Positions 18,655 through 61,591 of a stretch of DNA of 64,000 bases are shown piece by piece. A program made the translations under genes and the position numbers. The notes beneath the pieces were generated by a model. The model was not told the origin of the DNA and made no database searches. It was given only the letters and a program-made list of their open reading frames with translations. The stretch is from Norana najaformis (taxonomy: Eukaryota; Annelida; Clitellata; Crassiclitellata; Hormogastridae), in assembly GCA_964023275.1 (NCBI GenBank), contig OZ029919.1, positions 32,457,561 to 32,521,560 of the forward strand, given 5' to 3'. Positions within the stretch are counted from its first letter, which is position 1, and the number at the start of each line of letters is the position of its first letter.

Positions 18655-18935
18655 AAACAGATCGCAATCGTAATCGTACTCCCGAGTTTTCTACAGCGCC
18701 CAACGAAAGGCACGTCACGGGGACCAGCTTAATCACAGGCGCTCAGTCAAAACAAAATCGACAGGCAAAAAGGTTCGGTTCCAGATCAAGATCCAAGAGT
18801 CAGGCAGAGAGACAGCGTGACGGCTACGGTGGGTGATGTCTGGGAATGGAGCGGATAGAGAGATAAGAGGAAGAAGGGGAGTCAGGATAGGATCTGTGAA
18901 AGAGGAGTGCTTTCAGTTTTAAGTGAAAGACCAAT
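18655..18935 (-). mobile_element. LINE-like 3' end, family A
   Basis: On the + strand it starts ATCGCAATCGTAATCG, then ACAGCGCCCAACGAAAGG, GGCGCTCAGTCAAAACAAAA and AGATCAAGATCCAAGAGTCA. It is a near-full match to 1040-1262 but longer at its 5' side. Confidence 0.65.
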
Positions 18936-19129
18936 GCAGAAGTTGCAAGCAAGAAATTTCAAAACTGAAAACATTCGTCTTTCATAGCTACATATGCGAT
19001 AGTGAGCAAAATTTGTTCAACGTTAGGTGAGGTAAAGTACGACTAAGTAAAATTATGTAATGTAAAGATAGACAAGGTATGGTAAAATAAGATAACGTAA
19101 GACAAGGTAGGTTAAGGTATGGAAAGATG

Positions 19130-30171: not shown

Positions 30172-30833
30172 CTAGGGGCAGGGGGACGAGGGGGATGTGG
30201 AGGAGGAGGAGGAGAAGGAGGAGGAGGAAGAAGAAGAGAGGGTGGAAGTGGAAGAAGAGAAGATGAAAGGGAGGGAGGAAAAAGTGATGGCAGATGAAGA
30301 GGAAGGGGATGAGGCAGAAGAGGATGAGGGTGAGGAGGTGGTGGATAACGAGGAAAAGGAAGAACTTGTGGAAGAGGAAGAGACGGGAGAGGACGACGTG
30401 GGAGAGGAGGAGAGAGATGAGAAGGAGGAGGCAGTGGAAGAATGGGTGGAAGAGAAGGTGGAATAGGAGACGGAGGAGTAAGAGAATGATGAAAGGGAGC
30501 AGTGGAGGCGGAAAAGAAGGACAAGGAGTAGGAGTAGGGGGAGAAATGGGAGGAGGAAGATGCAGTGACCGGTTACGAGCCAAGCAACCAGAGCCGGTAG
30601 GAGGCCAGCGACGCTCGAGGGCTGTCCCCCGTAGGAAGAAACGGACCACGAGCAGAAACTGGAGGAGGCACCATTCGTAGAGTAGTGATGATGATGGTGG
30701 TCATAGTCGGGCAACAGTTGCGCATCGTTGCTCATTCTTCGGTGGTCACCCTTGGCCGCTGCCAGGGGGCGCCGGTTCCCCTCCGCTGGCGACCCTCCCC
30801 CGCCGTGGTTGGTGCCCCCGACGCCCCTGCCAT
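30172..30833 (-). CDS. CUB gene, exon 9 (tail; 3' limit uncertain)
   Basis: A strong acceptor (TTGTTTTCCTAG) starts the exon at 30833 in phase 1, fitting the donor at 31487. The first codons give DGRGVGGTNHGGGG and a His-rich DYDHHHHHYS. Around 30610-30500 the frame becomes hydrophobic (AGLLPALVAWLV, then a Leu-rich run), which could be a membrane segment or GPI signal. Beyond about 30540 the frame reads a CT-rich microsatellite as poly-Ser until TAG at 30172, so the real exon probably ends earlier at a donor. Confidence 0.45.
30190..30540. repeat. GA-rich tract
   Basis: GAGGAA/GGAAGA triplets on +. It overlaps the doubtful distal part of the CUB-gene tail exon. Confidence 0.8.
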
Positions 30834-31486: not shown

Positions 31487-31809
31487 CTGCAAGTAGTTGT
31501 TTGTAAGAGAGCCAGAATCCTCTTTCAGGCGTCGCCTGCGTTTGTCCGAAGGTCGTGAAGTAGATGAAACGGACCGGAGTTTTGTACCGGAAGCTGTATC
31601 GATGAACGCCATTCGTTGTATCTCCATCCTCCTCCTCATCGTCATCCTCTTCCGTATCCGTCGAATGACGCCTCTCTGCTTCCGTTTCCGCCTTTCCGGC
31701 GACCTCGTCTTCCTCGTTCTCTGTTCTTCCATCATTCTTCGCAGCCTCACAAAACCTCTTCAGCAATCGCTCGCCTTCGTAGATCTCAACATAGTCGTCA
31801 CACGACCCG
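31487..31809 (-). CDS. CUB gene, exon 8: second half of CUB3 with acidic insertion
   Basis: The acceptor TTGGTGTCCTAG precedes 31809 (phase 2) and the donor TTGCAG|GTCATC ends the exon in phase 1. The sequence begins GSCDDYVEIYEGERLLKRFC, the third and fourth CUB cysteines around the YVEIYEG strand. A highly charged segment of about 41 residues follows (residues 404-444, Glu/Asp-rich with a TDTEEDDDEEEDGD core), and then VRFIYFTTFGQTQ and GFWLSYK, the closing CUB strands. The exon is 323 bp versus about 200 bp for the equivalent exons of CUB1 and CUB2; the insertion accounts for the difference. Confidence 0.85.
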
Positions 31810-31877
31810 CTAGGACACCAAAAAACAACCTCTTAATCTTATTTTTGTCTAATCTAATCTTATCTTAGAGAAGGACA

Positions 31878-32135
31878 AAGAGGACGTAAATATGGCTACC
31901 CGATGACGTCATATCCGGAATCGTGTTTCCGAAGAACCTTTCTATTTTAGGAGTGGCCGTTGGGTCCCCATCGTAGATCTCAAGATGCTCCTCACGGCAA
32001 TCGTCTCTGCAGCACAAGATCACCGTGAAGCAGACACTTACAAGGTCCGGTTCAACATTAGTGTCTAGCTAGAGGCCACAGAAGACGTTAATGGCATAGA
32101 CACTCTCAACTTACACAAGTTACTATATAGACACT
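31878..32135 (-). pseudogene. duplicated, decayed copy of CUB2 exon 6
   Basis: This is about 95% identical to 38377-38632 (roughly a dozen substitutions and a 2-bp indel), covering most of exon 6 plus upstream intron. On the minus strand a good acceptor (CTTGTGCTGCAG) leads into RDDCREEHLEIYDGDPTAT, but Gly-Arg-Phe-Cys has become Glu-Arg-Phe-Phe, losing the fourth CUB cysteine. Just past the duplicated segment the frame meets TAA and no donor is retained. It lies in the phase-2 intron that splits CUB3, so splicing from exon 7 would be in frame and end the protein early. It is either dead or an alternative terminal exon. Confidence 0.8.
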
Positions 32136-32235
32136 GATATCATCATCTGATATAATCTAATCATATCTGATATAAGCAAATCTATTCTAACCTAATATAA
32201 TCTAATCTAATCTATTTGAATCTATGCTGGAATCT
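32136..32235. repeat. TAATC(T) pentamer-like repeat
   Basis: AATCTAATC units similar to the large array at 42250. Confidence 0.7.
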
Positions 32236-32574
32236 TCTATAGCACCGTTGTCGTAACAAAAAAATGAGGAATCAATTGGTGGTCACTTCCGAGCAAAAGG
32301 TTCATGTTCTGAAATCCCGATCCTTTGGACAGAACAGTCGAGATGAATGAGGTTCCAGAGACCGCAACACAAAGGTCCATTAGTCTTCCGAAAGACAACC
32401 AATGTAGCTCCAGTAGACAACCAGGATGATTTCTATAGCTCATTTATCTCTTCCATTCTATCTTTATGTTTCATGAAGTCTCATAAGGTTTTCTGTTGCA
32501 CGTCTTAAAAATGCATCTCTGAAAAACTATTCCAGTTGAGTATTACTATCAAATTTCAGTAATTTTCTGTTGTA

Positions 32575-32812
32575 CATTCCTCTTTCACAGATCCTATCCT
32601 GACTCCCCTTCTTCCTCTTATCTCTCTCTCCTCTCCAACCCCAAACACCATCCCCCATAGCTGTCTCTCCGTCTGACGTTTGGATCTTGACCTGGAACCG
32701 AACCCTTTTGCCTATCGATTTTGTTTTGACTGAGCGCCTGTGAATAAGCTGGTCCCCACGAAGTGGCTTTCGTTGGGCGCTGTAGAAATTTCGGAATTAC
32801 GATCACGATTAC
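32575..32812 (+). mobile_element. LINE-like 3' end, family A
   Basis: TTTCACAGATCCTATCCTGA, GGATCTTGACCTGGAACCGA, ATCGATTTTGTTTTGACTGA and GGGCGCTGTAGAAATTTCGG, then ATTACGATCACGATTAC. A full-length member of the set. Confidence 0.7.
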
Positions 32813-34542: not shown

Positions 34543-34744
34543 CTGAGTCCGTAGATGTTGAGGACGATATCGAGGCGATGATGTTGGTGGACGTGGAAGA
34601 TGTAAGTGCACTTGGTCCCTCTGGGCAGCCAGTGGTCAGGACTGGACACTGACCCTTCGGACACATTGAATGTCCAGTCGCACAGACTATTCGACGCCTT
34701 CTGACCACCGCCATGCCACTCTGAACCATACGCAGCCCGACAAA
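34543..34744 (-). CDS. CUB gene, exon 7: first half of CUB3
   Basis: The acceptor CTATAACTGAG at 34745 (phase 1) has an adjacent branch-point-like CTATAAC. The donor CTCAG|GTACAT ends the exon at 34543 in phase 2. After a short lead-in it reads LCDWTFNVSEGSVSSPDHWL, then GTKCTYIFHVHQHHRLDIVL, the first CUB cysteine pair and opening strands. The length of 202 bp matches the equivalent exons of CUB1 (199) and CUB2 (205). Joined to 31809, the split codon becomes Ser. Confidence 0.85.
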
Positions 34745-38305: not shown

Positions 38306-38505
38306 CTTTCGTCAATCCCAAGACGGAAGCGTGGAATCCGATGTTTCCGTAACGCGGCGTATCCGGTCCGCTGACGAAGAGGACGTAAATATGGCTGCCC
38401 GATGACGTCATATCCGGCATCGTGTTTCCACAGAACCTTCCCATTTTAGGAGTGGCCGTTGAGTCCCCATCGTAGATCTCAAGATGCTCCTCACGGCAGT
38501 CGTCT
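38306..38505 (-). CDS. CUB gene, exon 6: second half of CUB2
   Basis: The acceptor CCTTGTGTTGCAG precedes 38505 (phase 2) and the donor CGAAAG|GTCAGA ends at 38306 (phase 1). It reads DDCREEHLEIYDGDS, then PKMGRFCGNTMPDMTSSGS and YGNIGFHASV: the third and fourth cysteines, the LEIYDG strand and the closing strands. A 95% identical partial copy lies at 31878-32135. Confidence 0.9.
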
Positions 38506-38694
38506 CTGCAACACAAGGTCACCGTGAAGCAGACACTTACAAGGTCCGGTTCAACATTAGTATCTAGCTAGAGGCCACAGAAGACGTTACTGGCATAGAC
38601 ACTCAACTTACACAAGTTACTATATAGACACTAGTGGCTTCCTGCTGCAAATAGTTAATACATATGGAACTAAAGTTACTTGCTTGCTGACTTG

Positions 38695-39008: not shown

Positions 39009-39213
39009 GTCGCTTTGATGTCGAATTCTCGTGGTTTGTTGCGAGAGTTTGTTCCGGAGAACTTGATCTGGATCGCCATGTCCGCATCCCGGCTACTGAT
39101 GTGGTATCCGCACTCCATCGTCGGTGGATATGATCCCGGATATCCGGGCGATAATAACGGACACTCATCGTCGGTGCAGTCTTCGATCGTAATTCTCCAG
39201 GTGCACATGTATG
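39009..39213 (-). CDS. CUB gene, exon 5: first half of CUB2
   Basis: The acceptor TGGTTACATTACAG precedes 39213 (phase 1) and the donor GCGAC|GTATGC ends at 39009 (phase 2). It encodes YMCTWRITIEDCTDDEC, then LLSPGYPGSYPPTMECGY and MAIQIKFSGTN, a clear opening CUB half with the SPGYPGSYPP signature. It carries two more cysteines than CUB1. The length is 205 bp. Confidence 0.9.
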
Positions 39214-39349: not shown

Positions 39350-40138
39350 TCTCTCCCTGTCTGTCTGTCTCTGTCTTTCTGTCTGTCTCTGTCTTTCTGT
39401 CTGTCTCTGTCTTTCTGTCTGTCTCTGTCTTTCTGTCTGTCTCTGTCTTTCTGTCTGTCTCTGTCTTTCTGTCTGTCTCTGTCTTTCTGTCTGTCTCTGT
39501 CTTTCTGTCTGTCTCTGTCTTTCTGTCTGTCTCTGTCTTTCTGTCTGTCTCTGTCTTTCTGTCTGTCTCTGTCTTTCTGTCTGTCTCTGTCTTTCTGTCT
39601 GTCTCTGTCTTTCTGTCTGTCTCTGTCTTTCTGTCTGTCTCTGTCTTTCTGTCTGTCTGTCTTTCTGTCTGTCTCTGTCTTTCTGTCTGTCTCTGTCTTT
39701 CTGTCTGTCTCTGTCCGTCTGTCTGTCTCTGTCTTTCTGTCTGTCTCTGTCTTTCTGTCTGTCTCTGCCTTTCTGTCTGTCTCTGTCTTTCTGTCTGTCT
39801 CTGTCTTTCTGTCTGTCTCTGTCTTTCTGTCTGTCTCTGTCTTTCTGTCTGTCTGTCTTTCTGTCTGTCTCTGTCTTTCTGTCTGTCTCTGTCTTTCTGT
39901 CTGTCTCTGTCCGTCTGTCTGTCTCTGTCTTTCTGTCTGTCTCTGTCTTTCTGTCTGTCTCTGCCTTTCTGTCTGTCTCTGTCTTTCTGTCTGTCTCTGT
40001 CTTTCTGTCTGTCTCTGTCTTTCTGTCTGTCTCTGTCTTTCTGTCTGTCTCTGTCTTTCTGTCTGTCTCTGTCTTTCTGTCTGTCTCTGTTTTTCTGTCT
40101 GTCTCTGTCCGTCTGTCTGTCTGTCTGTCTCTCTTGCT
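39350..40138. repeat. 18-bp TCTCTGTCTTTCTGTCTG array with 196-bp higher-order unit
   Basis: About 43 copies. Variants (CTGTCCGTCT at 39711 and 39907; CTGCCT at 39765 and 39961; a 14-bp short unit before each) recur 196 bp apart, so a block of about 11 units was itself duplicated. Frames of about 300 residues on both strands are artefacts. Confidence 0.97.
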
Positions 40139-40384
40139 CTAGTTCTGTAACGTTTCCGGGGCAGAACGGATGCTACAAACGACCACTTCATATAGGAGGT
40201 AGAAAAGGCGATGAGGTGGGTGGCTCTGATACTGAGTGGCGCTATAGAAATGCGCTGTTCAGCCGCATGCAGTTGTACCTGTGCTCTTCATGAGGTGCAT
40301 GGAATGCTCTATCTGTCGTGGAAATGAATCGATCTCGCTGTCTATGACAGAAAACAAGGATTTGTACACAAAAGTAAACAATTT

Positions 40385-42249: not shown

Positions 42250-42775
42250 CACAAACTAATCTAATCAAATCTAATCTTATGTAATCTAATATTATATAAT
42301 CTAATCTTATATAATCTAATATATTTAATCTAATCTTATGTAATCTAATCTTATATAATCTAATCTTATATAATCTAATCTTATATAATCTAATCTTATA
42401 TAATCTAATCTTATATAATCTAATCTTATATAATCTAATCTTATATAATCTAATCTTATATAATCTAATCTTATATAATCTAATCTTATATAATCTAATC
42501 TTATATAATCTAATCTTATATAATCTAATCTTATATAATCTAATCTTATATAATCTAATCTTATATAATCTAATCTATTTAATCTAATCTGATATAATCT
42601 AATCTATATAATCTAATCTATCTAATCTAATCTAATCAGGTCTAGTATAATCTTATATAAATAAATCTTATATAATCTAATCTTATCTAAGCTAATCTCA
42701 TCTAATCTAATCTAATCTAATCTACTCTACTCTACTCTGATCAAGTCTAATCTAATCTAACATAACTAAATTAGA
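42250..42775. repeat. 15-bp TAATCTAATCTTATA array
   Basis: About 20 near-perfect copies (42300-42570) with degenerate CTAAT sequence on both sides, 40 bp upstream (in gene orientation) of exon 4. Confidence 0.97.
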
Positions 42776-56629: not shown

Positions 56630-56957
56630 CAACAGTTATCTGGTCAATCATACGAACTCACCAACACTTCACCTCTTTCAGTTTCTGCGCAGGTCTTTCA
56701 CTCAAGACTGAAAACACTTCTTTTCCAAAAATCTTATCCTGATTCTTCCTCTTCCTCTTATCTCTCTTCTCGTTTCAATTTCAAACAGCATCCACCGTAG
56801 CCGTCCGACTGTCTGAGTGCCTGACTCCTGGATCTTGACCCTTTTGCCTATCGATTTTGTTTTGACTGAGCGCCTGTGAATAAGCTGGTTCCCGCGACTT
56901 AGCTTTCGTTGAGCGCTGTAGAAATCTCGAGATTACGATTACGATTACGATTACAGA
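56630..56957 (+). mobile_element. LINE 3' end, family A, with C-terminal reading frame
   Basis: The + frame reads SVSAQVFHSRLKTLLFQKSY, a motif like the C terminus of many non-LTR retrotransposon polyproteins. The common 3' UTR (ATCGATTTTGTTTTGACTGA, GAGCGCTGTAGAAATCTCGA) and four ATTACG units follow. This copy best shows that family A is a 5'-truncated LINE. Confidence 0.7.
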
Positions 56958-56961
56958 CTCA

Positions 56962-57251
56962 TCGATGCTCCACCTCTTGCAATTTCTGCATTGGCCTTTC
57001 ACTCAAAACTGAAAACATGCCTCTTTCACAGATCCTATCCTGACTCCCCTTCTTCCTCTTACCCTCCAATCCCAGACATCACCCACCGTAGCTGCCACGC
57101 TGTCGCTCTGCCTGACTCTTGGATCTTGACCTGGAACCGAACACTTTCGCCTATCGATTTTGTTTTGACTGAGCGCCCGTGAATAAGCTGGTTCCCGTGG
57201 CGTGGCTTTCGTTGGGCGCTGTAGAAATCTCGAGATTACGATTACGATTAT
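56962..57251 (+). mobile_element. LINE 3' end, family A
   Basis: Starts where the previous copy ends. FHSKLKTCLFHRSYPDS in the + frame, the same 3' UTR, then GATTACGATTACGATTA. The two copies form a head-to-tail pair. Confidence 0.7.
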
Positions 57252-60586: not shown

Positions 60587-60667
60587 AGACAAGATAAAGA
60601 CATAAGTCGATGGTCGCATCTAACAGAGTCAAACGTTTCACCACAAATTCAGTCTTAGAAAACTTAC

Positions 60668-61311
60668 ATCTCCCTGATGTTTCACAAAGGTTGTCACCAA
60701 TTCATGACGCAACAGATTCCAGATCTTGACTTTCCTGTCCCTTCCTCCACTGATGACAACCCCTTTCTTGAAGTCGACCCCAACGCAGGTCACTGGTCCT
60801 TCGTGAGCGACATGACCAGTTTTTGTCTCCCTCTGCGTTTGTTTCTTTGTTGACTGATCCATGAACTCTCCCTCGACGACCTGAGTTCTCACATTCCAGC
60901 ACAGCAGACGACCGCTCGTGGAACCCGTTACGCAGACTTCATTTGGACCCACTGCGGAACACTCCGAATTAACAGTGTCGATGTGCACTGGATCGTGGCT
61001 GTCCATCGAGATTTCATCTGCGTTGTCTCCGCAGATCGTGAATGTAAAAAAGAAAGACACGTCGACCGTCGGAAAGTAATTCAACACAAGGAAAAGAATT
61101 TTTAAGCCACGTGTTTTGTCGTTACTGTCTGTTGTTGCAGCAGAAATCAAGGAATTTCGGTTAGTTTTATCGGAATCCATTGTTACGGTTTGTGACCGCG
61201 ATGAAAAGCCGACGATGCGAAGATTTCTTGCATCCATTGTACCGTAAATGTTGCAGACGAGGTTCGATAAAGACTTCATCTTGGTTAAGTCGTAGATTCC
61301 CAGAATGATGC
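60668..61311 (-). CDS. WD40 protein, penultimate exon
   Basis: The acceptor TGTGATTGTAG precedes 61311 (phase 1) and the donor GGGAGAT|GTAAGT ends at 60668 (phase 0). The 214 codons include GIILGIYDLTKMKSL, a Ser/Thr-rich non-WD segment with a hydrophobic run (about residues 70-90 of the exon), and two blades: VCVTGSTSGRLLCWNVRTQ and GVVISGGRDRKVKIWNLLRH. The interruption between blades suggests a loop or a second propeller. Confidence 0.85.
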
Positions 61312-61591
61312 CTACAATCACATCGAATTATTTTATCATTCTGTTTCTATTTTGGATAAATCACAATAATATTAAAATAATTATCATTCTCAATAATTAA
61401 TAATAATGTTATTATTATTATTATTAAATTTTGATAATATTATACAGTATTTAAAAAATAATGATTATTATTATTATTACTATTATTCTACTTCTGTGTA
61501 TTGTTCTGGAATGGCCAGCGCTTGCTGATATCCATAACAATAATAACTAATAATTATTATTATTATCATTAATGTTATTGTTTGTTCATGC

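Follow-up and report, generated by a model that had tools for sequence, protein, structure and literature searches.

This locus raises the question whether a partial second copy of a CUB exon, lying in the intron that splits another CUB domain of the same gene, is used by the gene as an exon or is a duplication without function. The stretch of DNA analysed, referred to as the window, comprises 64,000 nucleotides, and it is crossed by a minus-strand gene with CUB-like exons, which were inferred from splice signals and a continuous reading frame. The copy is very probably a templated DNA insertion that has become a neutral pseudo-exon, acting at most as a weak cryptic "poison" 3' splice site. 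The features on which the argument depends are given below in the direction of the gene.

42208-42006, minus strand: exon CUB1b (splice signals and frame; named CUB1 by appearance only)
39213 to 39009 or 38919, minus strand: exon CUB2a, first half of CUB2 (the two ends follow from domain fit and splice score)
38373-38632, minus strand: source segment, running from the last part of intron 2a-2b into exon CUB2b as far as its base 133 (alignment)
38306-38505, minus strand: full exon CUB2b including its donor, encoding the second half of CUB2 (splice sites, frame and Pfam)
34543-34720, minus strand: exon CUB3a, first half of CUB3, with a phase-2 donor at 34543 (splice sites and frame)
32145-32224, minus strand: GATTA-rich tract 5' of the copy; like sequence stands 3' of the copy at about 31865-31835
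31874-32135, minus strand: copied segment, intron end with acceptor and truncated CUB second-half exon (alignment, 94.3%)
32006-32007, minus strand: acceptor kept by the copy, with the exon starting at 32006, counterpart of 38505 (score 2.93)
31898-31899, minus strand: weak GT present in the copy and new relative to the source, which has GC; it would end the exon at 31900 (score 2.38)
31865-31867, minus strand: in-frame TAA just beyond the copied segment (translation)
31487-31809, minus strand: exon CUB3b, which completes CUB3 and contains an acidic insert (acceptor 6.39, frame)
30172-30833, minus strand: presumed last exon, which encodes a hydrophobic stretch (acceptor 8.25, translation; its 3' end is the stop of the frame)

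The open frame of exon CUB2b matches the Pfam CUB family with 32.7 bits. Exon CUB2a has two candidate donors, both in phase 2: 38919 has the better splice score (5.28 versus 2.97 for 39009), and 39009 gives the better domain fit, CUB2 then being matched in one stretch at 62.6 bits, while with 38919 the match is split in two and scores 53.5 bits. These are possibly alternative donors. The native CUB3 reaches 20.9 bits, just under the cut-off of 21.4; this score is lowered by a long acidic insert, a run of E and D, lying within the CUB domain in exon CUB3b (31809-31487). The CUB1b piece matched no Pfam family, and none of the matches listed in a genome search with PF00431 (150 of 529 candidates scored) fell in the window, an absence that the share scored explains. 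Among proteins of solved structure, cubilin and neuropilins are the best relatives in sequence (18 distinct chains, E up to 0.01). The gene may be related to the SOL-1 type of CUB proteins, to which we do not assign it. Judged by eye, the hydrophobic stretch of the last exon is a possible membrane anchor, so the normal product seems to be membrane-anchored.

A BLASTN comparison within the window aligned 31874-32135 with 38373-38632 over 262 columns at 94.3% identity, with 13 substitutions and one 2-base indel (1 gap). The E-value of 1.5e-112 within the window places this similarity far beyond chance. Base-level alignment gave identical ends, namely 32135 to 31874 for the copy and 38632 to 38373 for the source, both on the minus strand. 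The first-pass annotation had described 31878-32135 as about 95% identical to 38377-38632; the boundary at 32135 was right, the other boundary being 4 bases short of its true position at 31874. Its placement of the copy between the two halves of CUB3 (CUB3a at 34720-34543 and CUB3b at 31809-31487) was correct as well. The copy consists of 129 bases of intron, including the acceptor, followed by exon CUB2b up to base 133 of its 200. It has the same orientation as its source and lies 6.2 kb downstream, inside the intron that splits CUB3. The segment 38373-38632 is taken as the source because only there is the exon complete. Like tandem or mutually exclusive exons, the copy shares its gene and its strand with the exon to which it is homologous.

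The 129 intron bases upstream of the acceptor rule out a retrocopy. When the genome itself (608,420,607 bases in 17 contigs) was searched with the 258 bases of 31878-32135, two places were found, both of them in the window and both candidates being scored, which rules out membership of a dispersed repeat family. An Rfam scan of the window gave no matches at the gathering score.

The insertion site is embedded in simple repeats. The words AGAT and GATTA occur 8 and 5 times in the 90 bases before the copy and 4 and 3 times in the 44 bases after it, versus once and not at all in the copy. The two GATTA-type flanks have a 10-base word in common. No exact duplication of 4-11 bases was found at the junctions, an absence made less certain by the repeat-rich site, and inspection by eye revealed no clear microhomology at either junction. 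Neither a poly(A) tract nor a preceding AATAAA was found in the junction sequence and in the signal scan of 32006-30000. The copy thus shares with class 2 templated insertions the absence of a target-site duplication and of a poly(A) tract with its preceding AATAAA. A 438-base query from upstream of the copy gave at least 78 listed matches in the same genome (40 of 104 candidates scored). Most of those listed cover query positions 350-429, which is the GATTA tract itself, and some (positions 212-355, 230-389 and 285-425) extend into the sequence beside it; on account of the latter the tract could represent the tail end of an element that is dispersed. Relatives elsewhere in the genome exist for the DNA just upstream (32362-32145), mostly for its GATTA-rich end, and not for the copy. 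A long tract of the GATTA/TATAA type resembling the one beside the copy occupies 42251-42750 (minus strand), where two bins of 250 bases contain 31 and 27 GATTA words, and ends just upstream of CUB1b.

Three published accounts describe comparable events. Tandem exon duplication, which as described there includes unannotated exon-like copies in introns (PMC9013439), resembles the present case in that an exon of the same gene was copied in the same orientation together with flanking intron. It differs in that our copy lies 6.2 kb away with CUB3a in between, is incomplete and has no donor. Mutually exclusive exons that arose by duplication (PMC6071210) likewise have exon and adjacent intron copied together, whereas the present copy is unable to act as an in-frame internal exon, because the donor was never copied. 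Class 2 templated sequence insertions, described from human polymorphisms (PMC5110952), are patches from elsewhere without target-site duplication or poly(A) tail, and differ from the copy in that its template is only 6.2 kb away and in the same gene. The simplest account by analogy with these insertions (PMC5110952) would be break repair from a nearby exon: a break in the unstable GATTA-rich tract was likely repaired with a patch templated from CUB2b, so that about 262 bases, covering the closing part of intron 2a-2b and two thirds of the exon, would have been placed 6.2 kb downstream without a change of orientation.

The splice signals of the copy were scored with site frequencies that were not trained on this species. 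Its acceptor scores 2.93, equal to that of the source. As the first-pass annotation had claimed, acceptor and phase 2 are kept: CUB3a ends in phase 2 at 34543, the copied exon starts at 32006, and the joined frame stays open until it ends at the TAA of 31867-31865. The phase of the source exon does not depend on the choice of the CUB2a donor, since both 39009 and 38919 are in phase 2. The phase does match, but there is nothing striking in this. CUB2b and CUB3b are both preceded by phase-2 introns, the five introns measured total 10,266 bases, 31.5% of them in phase 2 (with the donor at 39009), and about 16% of random insertions into these five introns would match in phase and orientation. The matching phase is thus expected and is no strong sign of function.

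The donor is indeed absent from the copy, as had been noted, but it was never copied and did not decay by mutation, for it follows 38306 and lies outside the segment. The copy is accordingly not a complete exon with an acceptor and a phase-compatible donor; 67 of the 200 source bases are wanting along with the source donor. The new GT at 31898-31899 differs from the source by a single base, and its use would give a 107-nt exon with a frame shift and an early TGA in CUB3b in the shifted frame. The best-scoring GT in the copied exon is at 31996 (3.7), 11 bases in. An internal cassette exon is ruled out by the lack of an in-frame donor.

The exonic part of the copy, 44 codons, differs from the source by 5 non-synonymous and 4 synonymous changes. 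The dN/dS comparison proposed in the first-pass annotation gives dN 0.050, dS 0.151 and a ratio of 0.33, which with 9 changes has low power and too little length to decide; it was dropped as a decisive test. At face value the ratio leans towards constraint, and 9 changes fit either neutrality or moderate constraint. A constrained source lineage, moreover, adds mostly synonymous change and so lowers the ratio. Neutral simulation from the source gave a mean of 6.6 changed codons, with a probability of 0.18 for 5 or fewer, and 76% of the runs stayed stop-free. Under a binomial model the probability of at least 6 non-synonymous changes among 9 is 0.88 at a ratio of 1 and 0.11 at a ratio of 0.2, so that the observed 5 of 9 does not decide. 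Divergence is not lower in the exonic part (9/133) than in the intronic part (4/127; Fisher p 0.26).

The fourth CUB cysteine is lost in the copy, as had been observed before: Cys4 has changed from TGT to TTC (Phe), which breaks the Cys3-Cys4 pair of the second half of the domain. In the six displayed stretches of cubilin and neuropilin-1 that cover this site, five have Cys and one has Tyr. Over the same 44 residues the Pfam CUB score falls from 30.0 bits in the source to 23.7 bits in the copy, which alone still passes the PF00431 cut-off of 21.4 bits (profile 53-95). The hybrid of CUB3a and copy scores 39.4 bits over profile positions 1-96 of 110, above the native CUB3, and this counts against a dead copy, as do the frame without a stop before 31867 and the unaltered acceptor score.

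Most likely, as far as sequence can tell, the copy is a real but ordinary partial exon duplication that is dead. The earlier alternative of a recent pseudo-exon fits an incomplete exon whose donor was not copied, whose Cys4 is lost, whose constraint is not significant and which is embedded in simple sequence repeats; it is the best reading and is preferred to that of a terminal exon. After insertion, presumably recent, the fragment would have drifted without detectable constraint into a dead pseudo-exon. Splicing from CUB3a to 32006 may occasionally occur, as the acceptor is as good as that of the source. With neither an adequate donor nor a poly(A) signal present, such transcripts would mostly run on into CUB3b, stop at 31867 and be removed by nonsense-mediated decay (NMD).

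A weak poison splice site would be the most plausible residual function. In its regulated form, the acceptor of the copy would compete with that of CUB3b, and the extended exon 32006-31487 with its premature stop would lower the amount of full-length protein through NMD. The acceptor is intact at the source's score, no good donor precedes CUB3b, and 378 nt separate the stop of the run-on transcript from the subsequent junction at 31487. By the usual rule, a stop this far before the next junction marks a transcript for NMD. However, the CUB3b acceptor, 197 nt downstream of the copy's, scores 6.39, whereas the copy's 2.93 is near the 90th percentile of the 4081 AG sites on the strand (90th percentile 2.57, 95th 4.54), which makes it a weak site. 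Regulation of this kind is unlikely.

Lower still is the probability that an allele of exon CUB2b was misplaced by the assembly into the repeat tract of intron 3a-3b. The insertion does sit in low-complexity sequence, where assemblies err, but 5 differing residues of 44 and a missing disulphide cysteine are not what one would expect of a functional allele; furthermore, the genome search showed no further copy or unplaced haplotig, and the window contains no N. Least probable of all is the alternative terminal exon giving a shortened, secreted product devoid of the C-terminal hydrophobic stretch, for which speak the in-frame junction, the stop just beyond the copy, a hybrid CUB in register and the apparent membrane anchoring of the normal product, and against which stand the loss of Cys4 and of the last part of the domain, the stronger acceptor only 197 nt downstream and the want of any AATAAA, ATTAAA, AGTAAA, TATAAA, CATAAA or AATACA in 32006-30000, where of the eight poly(A) variants looked for only AATATA (31205) and GATAAA (30920) occur. 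If the site were used with read-on, an NMD-type transcript would be a likelier outcome than a secreted protein.

As it stands, the dead pseudo-exon is one unremarkable partial duplication that matters mainly as a source of wrong gene predictions. It is also clear, dateable raw material for exon gain, with a working acceptor and phase and no donor. If transcripts used it, a templated insertion would have created a truncating isoform or a poison splice site at once. It is doubtful that the junction of CUB3a with the copy is used in some tissue, as a regulated NMD switch or for a soluble hybrid CUB3 form; to the same doubtful degree, such use would be an early stage of a lineage-specific exon recruited by templated insertion into a phase-matched intron.

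Some further features of the window were noted. A dispersed repeat of about 200-290 bases, with 78-91% identity and in both orientations, occurs at 1044-1257, 18666-18949, 32574-32812 and 56675-57250, and one of its copies shares the intron of the CUB exon copy, which it precedes by about 440 bases. The intron before CUB2a contains a very long simple repeat tract of the CAGA type (39350-40140). Upstream of the CUB gene, 60638-61327 (minus strand) holds a piece of a WD40-repeat gene (PF00400, 30.1 bits).
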